From Urechis unicinctus (lineage: Eukaryota > Annelida > Polychaeta > Xenopneusta > Urechidae): DNA of 64,000 bases. The position numbers were made by a program, and so were the translations under genes. The stretch is from contig CM067354.1 in assembly GCA_034190875.2 (NCBI GenBank), positions 5,882,424-5,946,423 on the forward strand, written 5' to 3'. Below the pieces are notes generated by a model, which was given only the letters and a program-made list of their open reading frames with translations, was not told the origin of the DNA and did not search any database. Numbering within the stretch: the first letter of the stretch is position 1; every line of letters starts with the position of its first letter. This document shows, one piece after another, positions 43,556-48,431 of this stretch.

Positions 43556-44254
43556 TTTTGTAATGCAGGCGTATACATCTTCGCAAATCAAGCTAATTAT
43601 TTAGGCTTTTGTCATCATTCCTCTGATAATGTATCTTGCGCTTGCATTTTATACAAAAGATTTATGACTTCTTATGACTGGCGCCGAGGGTGACAATTAA
43701 CATCAACCATAAATTTGATTAATAATATACTGTGTTTTGAAAGTTGTTGGAGGGCATGTTGTCACCCTTGTCACTCTATACGCACATGAGTGATACCATT
43801 TACGCCGCCCATGTCTCAATTCAGTGACTCAATAACAGCAAGTATGCCATAGGTCTATTTATTTAAATAAGCACCAGGTATGACGTCAAACTACTCCTTA
43901 AGTTACTTTGACTGCGAGCAGATATTGATACATATGAAAATCCGGGAATAAGATCAAAGATTTTATGTTTGGTGCATACTGCAATAAACAGCACGTGGCA
44001 ATTCAGCTTGGTAAAAAACAACAACCGTATAATTACAATCCAGACATCTAAGTATATGCAACAGCGAGATCGTCAGTATTGCAGTGCGGCATTACAGCAG
44101 CGGAAAGCTTGCAGCATTCGTTTTGCTACCGCCTAAAAGTATAAATGTGACATTTATTAGGCCATCCATTAGAGAAATGGGTTTATTGCATGGGGAAAAA
44201 AATCCAATATGTTTACGAACGCGATTCGCTCCAGCTACTGTACTTCAGGGTTAT

Positions 44255-44281
44255 TTAAAGATGCATTTTTTCAAAAAAATG
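44255..44281 (+). repeat. Left TTAA and terminal inverted repeat
   Basis: TTAA (44255-44258) is followed by the terminal repeat, itself a near-palindrome of GCATTTTTT and AAAAAAATG. A short hairpin is therefore possible at the tip. Confidence 0.88.
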
Positions 44282-44400
44282 ACATGCGGTTTTTTTGCTC
44301 CATTTAAAACACCGTATCGAAATCTGTCGGCCACACCCATGTTTACAAACATGAGCACATGTCGATGGGAAAATGACGCATGCGTATTGAAGGGTCTTTG

Positions 44401-44472
44401 TTGACAACACATAGTCGTGACGTCACGCGCATCGCAGATTCGACAGAAGGTGGAAACGCATGCAGCCGAAAT
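44401..44472 (+). promoter_or_regulatory. Probable left promoter and first exon of the transposon
   Basis: A perfect cAMP-response-type palindrome TGACGTCA lies at 44418-44425 in a locally CpG-rich stretch (CGTCACGCGCATCG). It is followed by two ATG codons (44460 and 44470) and immediately by GTGAGTG at 44473, a good splice donor. I infer a short first exon ending ATG/GTGAGT. No TATA box is apparent. The reading is from motifs only. Confidence 0.5.
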
Positions 44473-45834
44473 GGTGAGTGTTTTGATTCCTACATTTCTC
44501 TTCTTTGTTCTTCTTTGATTGGAGTTTTCGAATGTTATATATAAAAAAGAACCCGCCTCAATAAAGTGAACACTATCGGTACAATAGATTACCATAAATT
44601 TAACAACAGATAGCGTTACACCTGCGAACGAACCCTGAGGTAGCCCTTAGACTTAGTATATTATATTTATACTGAGGCTGCGCATATTCAAGCGTAATAA
44701 AAACGATATTCTTGACTAGTCTTTTACGTTTTTGAGTGTAAAGCCATGACACTTGTTCGAAGTTTGATTATTTCATATGCAATTATCGGTGCTTTTTCAT
44801 AGCAAACTATTGGAATATTCCTGAATGAACTCATAAATTGTAATATAAATCAAGGGACTGGGGTCTCCCTCAGGACGTCTACCTTATCTGGTTATAGTGA
44901 ACTGAAACAGGGATTTGAATTGGCTGGCCAGTCGCTATCTTCTATGCATACATAAACCCTACAGAGAAGATAGCGGCCAGCCAATGCAAATCCCTGTGTA
45001 CTGAAACGTCCACGCTAGGAGTTTGGGGTGGTATGTATCATCGTATGGGTTTGGCTGACTTTTGTAGGCTTTTGGCTCAAACACTGTAACATTATTGATT
45101 GAATTATTCTTGTCATGTTCATTCATTGATTAAATTGAACCAACCCACTTTCAAATTTAAAGGAAATCAAAACGCCAAGGAGGGGATCACAGACAGGAAG
45201 AGGCAGTGGAAGGGGTCATTGTACAGATTCTGACAACCTGTGTGGAACTGAGGTTGGTTCCTTTTTTATTTGATTCTTATCAAGGGTATTTTATTGAACT
45301 CAATACACCCATTATAACTGGGAAGGATGTGTTTAATGATTTGAAATTGTTCACCATGACACAGGTGTCAAAATTGGGTGGAGGTTGCAGACAAACCTGA
45401 AGAGGTGGCAGAGGAGCCCCACCTTCTTCAAACAAGGTACTTTTGGGCCTGCCTTACCTAATTGAATCACTTTGTCAGTAAATAGGTCCAATGTTGAACT
45501 ATCGAACCATAAATTTCCATTGGTTCTCATTTGTTTGTAGACCTCGACAGGCCGAAAGCGAGTCAATCTTGTTCGCAGAGGCTACCTTTGCAACACACCA
45601 ATAACTAACCAGACCCTACAGCAGAGTAGAGTGACTGCTAAATCTTTAGAGCTGTCACAGAAGGAGAAATTGAAGGTATTGTACAACTCAGCATTTAGCA
45701 CTCTTCAGCTGCTCCAAAAACCTTCATGCAATTTTGGTCACAGAGAGAGATTTGTATTGGAGATATTCAATCCATCAAAATGTAGACTTTTGATTACTCA
45801 TATTTTCAGAATTTAGTGCGGTGGCTGGATTTGG
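44473..45834 (+). other. Transposon 5' gene region, exon structure unresolved
   Basis: Between the putative first donor and the P2X7-like block lie open stretches at 45206-45400 and 45631-45816. The latter includes TAKSLELSQKEKLKVLYNSA, which reads like a helical coding segment. A C/T-rich stretch is not clear before either. These may be decayed exons of the same gene. A foldback element at 44908-44996 lies in the probable intron. Confidence 0.35.
44898..45006. mobile_element. 89-bp foldback (MITE-like) element with flanking direct repeats
   Basis: Two arms of about 33-36 bases (44908-44943 and 44964-44996) are inverted copies that differ by one substitution and a 3-base indel. They start CAGGGATTTG and end CAAATCCCTG around a 20-base loop. 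The flanks TGAACTGAAA (44898-44907) and TGTACTGAAA (44997-45006) form a 10-bp direct repeat with one mismatch. The CAGGG start recalls hAT-type termini, whose usual target duplication is 8 bp. It could also be a hairpin that arose by local inverted duplication. Confidence 0.72.
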
Positions 45835-46285
45835 ATGGGGTGGGTCAGTTGCTGGTTAGAAAGACAGCCACAGTTTGCGCTTACAATCACCCGACAACCC
45901 ACACCGCCGAAAGAAGGATTCCACCCTCCATCAACTACCACTTCCCCAGACTGTTGCATCTGCCTTCACTGTAGGGAAATGCCTCCCCCTGTGGAGTGGC
46001 AATGTTGCACTAACAGCCCAGACTTTTGCACATATGCACTACCTCAGATGGAAGGAGTTGTGCTTGACCCGATGGTCATTGAGGTTATTAACAGGTACCG
46101 GGTGGACTTGCTATGGGATGCGGTTGTCGAGGACAAAAAAAAAGATGCTTAGTCACGACGCCTATCAGCAATTGGTTCTGTGGATTCATGTATTTTTGAG
46201 GAGTGCAACAGGAGGGTAACTCTGGTTGTGTAAGGAAGATCAGAGACCTCTTCCTTAACAAGTATTGACAGTATTCAGGCTTAAT
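45835..46285 (+). pseudogene. P2X7 receptor C-terminal (ballast)-like zinc-binding domain gene, broken
   Basis: The plus-strand frame from 45835 holds CCICLHCREMPPP (from 45952), then a CC pair with a spaced C (ECCTN-like, read as QCCTNSPDFC), then VVLDPMVIEVINRYRVDLLW. In the next frame comes AYQQLVLWIHVFL (46161-46199). After another frame change comes CVRKIRDLFLNKY then QYSGL (46227-46285). The order and spacing match the cytoplasmic ballast domain of vertebrate P2X7. There, C-x-C-x2-C, a CC pair, a hydrophobic LVL segment, AYR-x4-W, and CRxRIRxxFP with GQYSGF are the landmarks, and the cysteines bind zinc. The ion-channel part is absent. At least two frameshifts and one stop are visible, one of the frameshifts in an A9 run at 46135-46143. 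The role in the transposon is unknown; a DNA- or protein-binding accessory role is only a guess. Confidence 0.78.
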
Positions 46286-46754
46286 ACAAATAGGTTTTGG
46301 TAATATACTAAGTCTAAATGTTTTAATTTTTAATTTTAATCCATAAATATCACATTGTTCTGATTGGTATTTTTGTGTGGATTATAAATTGCTTAGTCTT
46401 ACAAAACATGTGGTATTATTTGTTGTGAACATTTTTGCTTCAACAATCTGATAACTTATTGTCTATTTGTTTTATGGAATGAACATTCATATATTAGTAA
46501 ATGTTTTGTCTCTCAAACACAGAAGAAAAGAATTATGCACACATTATTTTGTCAATTAGTCATGACACTTATCTTCAGATTTGACTTTTTATGTTCATAA
46601 TTCTAGCCCTGATAAAAATAGAAGTGACATTAAAATGAGTTCATGTATTATTTATTTGCCAATTACATGTGTTCTTCTATTACAGTTTGGATTTACAGAC
46701 AAAAGAATGTGACTAATAAATTATTGTACATTTCAACAAAAACAAATTTCCAAA
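46286..46754. other. AT-rich region between the two convergent transposon genes
   Basis: No coding signal is seen. AATAAA at 46715-46720 (plus) and ATTAAA on the minus strand near 46760 are candidate polyadenylation signals for the two genes. Confidence 0.35.
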
Positions 46755-47001
46755 TCATATTTTTAATAAAAATGAGACTCCTGCAACTGTTTCTTGGGTA
46801 GATGGCCTGGCACAGGAGCAATGTTCAAACTGATTTTGCGGGGTCATCAGCAGAGCGTTGTGGGTGTTGTTGTGATTGCTATCGCATTGCTTGGGCCTAA
46901 AGATTTCTGTCATCATATCTGGTATATGGACATAAGTCTTGACCTCTAAACCGATGACCACGTCTTTGACTGCTTGTTGAAGCGATTGCTGTACCTGTAA
47001 C
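46755..47001 (-). CDS. Possible last exon of the minus-strand transposon gene
   Basis: The minus-strand frame begins after a TTTGTTGTGTTACAG acceptor-like stretch (about 47002-47016). It encodes VQQSLQQAVKDVVIGLEV and continues to a stop at 46755. An internal segment has the rhythm of a conserved helix (QQAVKDVV). No domain is recognised. The assignment to the same gene as 47455-47643 is inferred from strand, spacing and the splice-like border. Confidence 0.35.
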
Positions 47002-47454
47002 ACAACAAATGGCATTATATGGCAAATAGCTAGAACACATTACATGTGCAGCATCAGTATTGTGTTTTCTGATAGGACATTTAGTCAGTGTGTAGTTGAG
47101 TGGTCATGAGAGACTTACATTGGCTGACCAACCCTACTTGAGTGCATATGTCCTATCCCTATACCTGTTGTGGTCTATTGTCACAACTTGACTGCAGGCA
47201 AGGTATAATGAACACCTGATCGCCAGCCATTGAATTAGGGTCAAGAGGATGCAATAATTTCTCTACCTGAAATTTACAAATTAAGTAAGGTACCTGGTAT
47301 GTTTGCAACAACAATCTACAAATCTAAATGGTGCAATGAACTCACAATAGGCCCTTAGATTTTATTTAATCGGTGACATTTACACAAGTCGATTCAATAC
47401 AGACCGATTCGATAGCAGGGTATTCATCTGTTCATAATACAACGAGATTACTTA

Positions 47455-47643
47455 CATGTCCAGCAACAACTTTGCAGCTTCTTCGTTGGTCACACTCCTC
47501 ACTTCCCTGAATGCCTATCTTAAGACACCCTCGTGTTAGACCGCAGCTGGTCTAGCTCCCGCTTCCTTCTCTTAGTTGTAGAATCTATTAACAGCTTCTT
47601 TCTCTCTCCACCTTTTCTTCGTTTCTTGGTTTGATCGTCCATT
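47455..47643 (-). pseudogene. Possible first exon of the minus-strand transposon gene, basic N-terminus
   Basis: The minus-strand ATG at 47643-47641 starts MDDQTKKRRKGGERKKLL, continues through TKRRKRELDQLRSNTRVS, and stops at 47520. In the next frame AFREVRSVTNEEAAKLLLD follows, ending exactly at a GTAAGT donor (about 47456-47451). The RTRV...AF.xWR...E.A..LLLD pattern recalls a short N-terminal motif that I have seen in many animal transposon-borne genes. One frameshift is needed to explain it, so the gene is probably broken. The basic stretch could be a nuclear-localisation or DNA-binding segment. Confidence 0.45.
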
Positions 47644-47760
47644 ATCGCAATGAAAATAGCGCAAACTAAACACCCGCCGGCGGCAATCGGCACAGAGTGA
47701 TGACGTTTCTGCGCTTCCGGAATTAATAATACATGAGCTTCCAAATATGGTCTATTCTTG
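47644..47760 (-). promoter_or_regulatory. Probable right promoter of the transposon
   Basis: Upstream of the minus-strand ATG is a CpG-rich stretch with an ETS-type CCGGAAGCG (minus strand, about 47712-47720) and an ACGTCA half-site (47701-47706). It mirrors the CRE at the left end, so both ends may drive transcription inwards. No TATA box is evident. Confidence 0.4.
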
Positions 47761-47893
47761 GCTGGAAGTGAAAAATAAGGAATTGAAGGTTTATTTACGA
47801 ACAACAAGAAATATATACGGCAATTCCAACTTTGGAATCCGGATATCAGCACCATTTAGGGTACTCTTGGAGTTAGCAACTTTTTTTTTCGAT

Positions 47894-47922
47894 TCGATTT
47901 TTTGAAAAAAATGCACCTTTAA
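47894..47922 (-). repeat. Right terminal inverted repeat and TTAA
   Basis: On the minus strand the end reads AGGTGCATTTTTTTC then AAAAAATCG, matching the left end. The TTAA at 47919-47922 completes the target duplication. Confidence 0.88.
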
Positions 47923-48431
47923 GTAGTTATTGACTTACATTATCAATTGCGTTAGCATATAAACGTGCCTATTATAGTTCACACTATATGGTCACAGGCG
48001 CCTTAGTTCAGTTGACAACTGTTGATGGACAGTGATCACCTAACCGAAGCACAGAACTAATCATATAATCGTCCGTGGAGTCTATATAGTATTTTTACTC
48101 GCTATGTAACACATGGGTGTGTTGCAGCCGGATGGGTATCAGCTTGAAATATGTTGGTCTGCTGGCAGTACGTTACGATGTCATGGGATGCATCTATTGC
48201 GACAGTTACAACGTTCTGAAGACACTTTATGATTTAGGTGATACAAGTAAACCCCAAGGAATCAATTACCAGATGATTAATAAAGCTAAGCGTAACCTGA
48301 TATTGACTGATTTGACCCAATAGGCACCTCAGTAACGCTCCAATTGATATAAATACATCGGAAGTTATGGTGATTCAGAAGGTTTAAAAGTATCAAACTT
48401 ATTCCAAAAAAACAGGAACTACGTGGCGGTT
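47919..48431. other. Unit III repeat DNA between the two elements, no gene
   Basis: It matches unit IV 56502-56855 and 57536-57635. The open frame at 48117-48323 is not kept in unit IV. Confidence 0.6.

Follow-up and report, generated by a model that had tools for sequence, protein, structure and literature searches.

A TTAA-flanked element of Urechis unicinctus with a broken P2X7-type ballast gene: very probably a non-autonomous derivative of a Kol0-lineage Kolobok transposon

How the ballast domain of the P2X7 receptor could come to lie, detached from its channel, inside a mobile element is the question raised by a locus of Urechis unicinctus. The locus belongs to a window of 64,000 nucleotides (assembly GCA_034190875.2, contig CM067354.1, positions 5,882,424 to 5,946,423), in which a sequence-only reading had described a TTAA-bordered cut-and-paste element carrying this domain (Table 1). 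Kolobok transposons are characterized by TTAA duplications and 5'-RR and YY-3' termini, and their Kol0 lineage encodes a transposase together with KolX, a protein with the P2X7 ballast fold (Kojima & Bao 2022, PMC9587614). Based on its ends, KolX, and exon relics, which point to the Kol0 lineage, the element is very probably a non-autonomous derivative of a Kolobok DNA transposon of that lineage.

The element is bounded by inverted arms of 29 nt (44252-44280 and 47897-47925; 86% complementary) and carries a target-site duplication as in the Kolobok superfamily, with TTAA on both sides. Its termini, like those of its copies, are AG...CT and agree with the 5'-RR..YY-3' rule (PMC9587614), and the comparison of the ends with Kolobok that the earlier reading had called for thus favored this superfamily. 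Long terminal direct repeats of the KolobokP type (about 450 or 660 bp) were not found in 43800-48400. A search of the genome (1.19 Gb, 926 contigs) with a left-end query of 321 bases gave 680 first-look candidates, of which 40 places were scored; 20 of these 40 (L011-L030) and later one further copy (L031) were fetched. Among the 19 sequences with both ends located, which include the window copy and leave out L023 (right end not found) and L030 (right end unmatched), TTAA is present on both sides in 16, on one side in two, and on neither in one. The 200-bp flanks of the copies have no common match at E 1e-5, so the copies represent independent insertions. The complementary arms, the TTAA flanks, and the many copies bear out the bordered element that had been described, and the earlier reading of it as a cut-and-paste element is supported. 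Substitutions set the sequences apart from the majority by 0.38-2.00% (19 sequences), and the family is therefore young. The window copy lacks 64-65 bp at 44307-44308 that all 18 other aligned copies possess. The end motif TTAAAGRTGCATTTTT occurs 794 times in the genome (390 + 404), against five times (3 + 2) for a reversed-pattern control. Convergent pairs of the motif number 22 among the first 100 of the 794 places, with a spacing of 3.18-3.77 kb throughout, and one end reads AGATG and the other AGGTG in 14 of the 14 pairs with letters listed.

Inside the element, the frame 45817-46149 matches the P2RX7_C profile (PF20478) at 21.1 bits (E 3.2e-4), which is under the cutoff of 23.5, and a phmmer search with this frame gave no match in the PDB. 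This weak match is judged, from the sequence comparisons, to be real because copies and relatives score far higher: the natural open frames of copies L019, L021, and L022 reach 33.1, 36.9, and 34.3 bits, the relatives L054, L055, and L056 reach 78.3, 55.4, and 66.5 bits, and the KolX frame of a longer relative, L057, reaches 106.2 bits. L057 also matches P2X7 chains in the PDB (9e3m, 6u9v, 8tr5, 9e3q) at E 4.2e-18, and L054 matches P2X7 chains at E 2.8e-10. In the scanned open reading frames (ORFs) of the window, L032 (a Kolobok-like element with other ends), and L054-L057, PF20478 was the sole Pfam match above cutoff and no P2X channel domain was found. The second gene of the Kol0 lineage is thus represented by a relic in the window and by an open exon in L057. 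The channel-less P2X7-type ballast domain that had been claimed for the element is accordingly present, weakly in the window copy and strongly in its relatives; a profile match had been expected near 45952-46285, and one lies in that region, although its score in the window copy stays under the cutoff.

The ancestral KolX frame is lost in the window at a run of nine A residues, which counts eight in L019, L021, and L022, where the frame is retained. Of 20 readable sequences (window included, L026 not), only these three are in frame past the run, soon reaching a stop, while the other 17 lose the ancestral frame earlier; L026 and L031 are likewise out of frame. None of the 22 sequences (window and L011-L031) therefore remains in the ancestral frame from one end of the domain to the other, and traces of the domain are kept in all 22. 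Copies sharing the ends but lacking the domain, which the earlier reading had named as a possible objection, did not occur among these 22. One correction to that reading is that the element is a defective derivative: the frame is broken in the window and in the 21 fetched copies, and a transposase core is lacking. Ballast matches also occur in Kolobok-like families with other ends, such as that of L032, so the domain has carriers besides elements with the ends found here. Contigs C1 and C2 hold 15 window-family domain matches; for 11 of them an exact end motif is no farther than 6 kb away, and for four it is not.

The DDD/E transposase of Kolobok elements is represented in the element by exon relics only, and their nature emerges from L057. 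This relative (L057:2202-7430) is 5229 bases long, has window-type ends with TTAA on both sides, and contains an open KolX exon of 180 aa. Its identity to the window element is 95.9% over 49 bases and 85.6% over 299 bases at the left end, 73.1% over 2298 bases in the middle, and 84.8% over 632 bases at the right end (blastn). About 1.5 kb of L057 (5275-6802) is absent from the window family, which therefore has the appearance of an internally deleted version of an L057-type element. On the minus strand, L057:6948-7367(-) matches window positions 47855-47523 (E 1e-67) and 47514-47455 (E 1.1e-5), the first match taking in DNA upstream of a likely start at 47642. The exon at L057:4494-4790(-) shows 42% identity over 64 residues (E 7e-10) to the C-terminal part of the transposase of L032 (L032:6535-7431, minus strand), and L057:5198-5464(-) matches L032 at E 1.8e-5. 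L032, whose left end reads TTAA followed by AGAGGCTG, also possesses an open KolX exon (101.4 bits) on the strand opposite to its transposase. The minus-strand exons of the window element could accordingly be remnants of the transposase of its own family. On the plus strand, the stretch 45163-45675, in which possible middle KolX exons lie, shows DNA homology to L057. The diverged relatives L054, L055, L056, and L057 (73-95% DNA identity) carry KolX in the same place; L054 retains the right end, and in L055 an open ballast exon and the two ends fit within 3.56 kb. L054, L055, and L056 gave no match to the L032 transposase.

The linkage of the two genes was also followed across the genome. A PF20478 scan yielded 150 scored rows out of 2591 candidates, corresponding to 149 places, and no match in any of 14 control genomes; the L032 transposase, used as the only transposase query, yielded 134 scored rows and 119 places. 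Eleven of the 149 scored ballast places have a transposase match no farther than 5 kb away, where 0.16 would be expected by chance, and all 11 pairs are convergent, 0.9-1.7 kb apart. One occurrence of the end motif, at C2:5106381, also has a transposase match 2.3 kb to its inner side (C2:5108668-5108922).

Several observations weigh against a Kol0-lineage origin. The sequences read include no element that combines exactly these ends with a complete transposase, and the DDE-bearing half of the L032 transposase has no match in L057, so that this relative, too, may be defective. For L032, a right end could not be located. The L032 transposase matches the Mutator-like transposase profile PF20700 at 19.6 bits, below its cutoff of 26.5, and it matches PF21058 Stereocilin slightly better (22.3 bits, E 8e-5, also under cutoff); part of the Stereocilin model may itself derive from transposons. 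Finally, 138 of the 149 ballast places have no transposase match within 5 kb (one transposase query, scored rows).

Other explanations fit the observations far less well. A piggyBac-type element that captured a ballast exon would share the TTAA duplications, and KolX-like proteins are reported in a few piggyBac families (Kojima & Bao 2022, PMC9587614). However, the termini are of the Kolobok kind, the minus-strand relics match a Kolobok-like transposase gene, and no piggyBac domain was found by Pfam in the scanned ORFs of the window, L019, L021, L022, and L057. The piggyBac versions moreover lack most of the seven cysteines (PMC9587614), whereas L054 retains the pattern WCICLQC, CC, C, PSCC. 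This origin was set aside on the ends and the Pfam results for those ORFs and is considered highly improbable. Just as improbable is the recent trapping of a host ballast-domain gene in an unrelated element resembling a miniature inverted-repeat transposable element (MITE), as might be suspected for a young family with many copies of uniform length and no transposase core. KolX occupies a constant place in the diverged relatives L054-L057, of which L057, with its window-type ends, already contradicts recent trapping, and the remnants of another gene, convergent with KolX, match the Kolobok-like layout of L032. That the domain match is fortuitous and the element an anonymous non-coding MITE, as the sub-cutoff score, missing PDB match, and broken frame of the window copy would allow, is refuted by the 33-106 bits of copies and relatives and their matches to P2X7 chains.

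For the Kol0-lineage derivative, a possible history is proposed. In the ancestor, TTAA-specific inverted ends would have enclosed a convergent pair of genes, with KolX on the plus strand and a DDD/E transposase on the minus strand. An internal deletion may then have taken away most of the transposase gene, leaving a short form with both ends, which could be excised and moved into TTAA sites by Kolobok transposase from other loci of the genome. Such mobilization in trans would have spread the short form to many copies, and KolX, no longer needed in cis, could have accumulated frameshifts. It is conceivable that KolX was once supplied in trans by transposase-less elements with an open ballast exon, such as L055, and the transposase by others, although such a split helper system is considered very unlikely.

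Whether KolX was under selection was approached by comparing 10 of 47 sequences in 45 pairs, 11 of which were tested against a neutral non-synonymous share of 0.765 (an approximation). Non-synonymous changes are depleted in pairs with L041, which is the L057 exon, or with L044 (28/67, 32/69, 35/74, 34/74, and 19/49; p <=6.4e-8). No depletion was found among L054, L055, and L056 (20/29, 18/27, and 29/38) or between these three and L042 (38/55, 40/57, and 45/63), and the ratio of non-synonymous to synonymous divergence (dN/dS) in the L032 type is 0.73-0.88 (L032 or L033 versus L043 or L045). The synonymous divergence with L041 is about 1, above the level suggested by the flanking DNA, and the claim is therefore limited to possible past constraint on KolX in one lineage, the result being mixed overall. 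The same high synonymous divergence raises the suspicion that the L057 exon is a mosaic; its identity to the window family (77.2%) is similar to that of its flanks (75.6% and 74.5%). These values come from a MAFFT alignment in which the right part was misplaced, and the right end was compared by blastn instead.

Table 1. Features of the element and its target site, in window positions; KolX exons marked possible were derived from splice signals
Feature	Position	Strand	Remarks
Whole element	44259-47918	.	3660 bp; very probably a non-autonomous Kolobok (Kol0-type) derivative
Left TTAA target-site copy	44255-44258	.	
Right TTAA target-site copy	47919-47922	.	
Left terminal inverted repeat	44259-44280	+	starts AGATGCATTTTTT
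Right terminal inverted repeat	47897-47918	-	starts AGGTGCATTTTTT, inward reading
Possible first KolX coding exon	44460-44473	+	ATG, then gtgagtg
Possible middle KolX exons	45163-45252, 45365-45436, 45541-45675	+	
KolX last-exon relic with P2X7-type ballast domain	45810-46221	+	profile match 45928-46110; relatives match 45937-46221
Run of nine A	46135-46143	+	ancestral frame lost here; stop 46150-46152
Transposase C-terminal exon relic	46785-47008	-	stops inside; tblastn L057:4494-4790(-), E 1.1e-11
Short internal transposase exon relic	47245-47280	-	adjoins deletion; tblastn L057:5198-5464(-), E 2.7e-4; blastn 41 bp, 90%
Site of the ~1.5 kb absence	47285-47311	.	L057:5275-6802 missing here
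First minus-strand exon relic (MDDQTKKRRK...)	47455-47642	-	frame broken; matches L057:6948-7367(-)

Some further features were noticed in the element, its copies, and its relatives. An inverted repeat of 23 nt (96%) with a loop of 45 nt lies at 44907-44997, in a stretch of the element with no recognized exon. Copies L017 and L021 contain differing insertions, of 797 bases in one and 949 in the other, at a shared position that matches window position 44631; they were considered as possible transposase remnants and set aside, the two being dissimilar, and other transposons may favor this position as a target. The L057 element is closely followed, at L057:8080-8709, by an inverted second copy of its right part, 85% identical to the window family. 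In L032, a cysteine-rich open stretch with no Pfam match (L032:3583-3900, plus strand; CRCKGQCVRRCPCKKNGTNCSTRCFCKVKFC) precedes the KolX exon and resembles CXC-type cysteine repeats. Many PF20478 rows of the genome scan cover only the C-terminal half of the domain (profile 143-191), often as an identical open stretch of 59 residues; these places probably constitute another multi-copy family, of which L053 is one fetched example. On one strand of C15:46490390-46513466, five window-family domain matches follow one another at intervals of about 5.7 kb, as in a tandem array, and five ballast matches are clustered on one strand within 35 kb at C16:32212176-32247317.

The presence of the ballast domain in a transposon was already published in 2022, when P2X7 and Nanor were derived from KolX and P2X7 was proposed to have arisen by fusion with KolX (Kojima & Bao 2022, PMC9587614); the present element is a newly described defective carrier. 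In a literature search on KolX or Kolobok, no other paper holding both terms was among the matches listed. Stand-alone ballast domains have been reported (Rump 2020, PMC7016195), and the main text of that paper contains no occurrence of "transpos". The sequence-only reading was thus right in outline, as to both the carriage of the domain and its relevance to P2X7, for which the physical link is present; it was anticipated, however, in the origin from KolX (PMC9587614), and the element proved defective. What is added here is the internally deleted derivative, its broken KolX, the longer relative L057, and the genome-wide convergence. Together these check, independently and across a whole genome, the published view of the P2X7 ballast domain as a Kolobok gene: one genome holds 149 scored domain places, and wherever a transposase match is nearby, the pair is convergent. 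Defective derivatives that carry dead KolX to many sites would also be one route by which stand-alone P2X7-like fragments multiply. The element alone raises no new question.

Among known systems, the element is most readily compared with the Kol0 Kolobok transposons with KolX (PMC9587614), with which it shares TTAA duplications, RR..YY termini, the KolX ballast domain, and relics of a second, transposase-like gene, while differing in the missing transposase core and the broken KolX frame. The Kolobok elements of Xenopus have AG ends and a TTAA target, and the non-autonomous T2-MITEs among them likewise form many copies without a transposase of their own (PMC6004289); the present element, at 3.7 kb, is not miniature, and relics of both genes are recognizable in it. 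The stand-alone ballast or ZCD proteins and Nanor (PMC7016195) resemble it in having a ballast domain that is rich in cysteine, binds zinc, and is not joined to a P2X channel, but in the window this domain sits inside a transposon. The P2X7 receptor shares with it the ballast domain, C-terminal in the receptor; no channel domain, in contrast, was found in the ORFs of the element.

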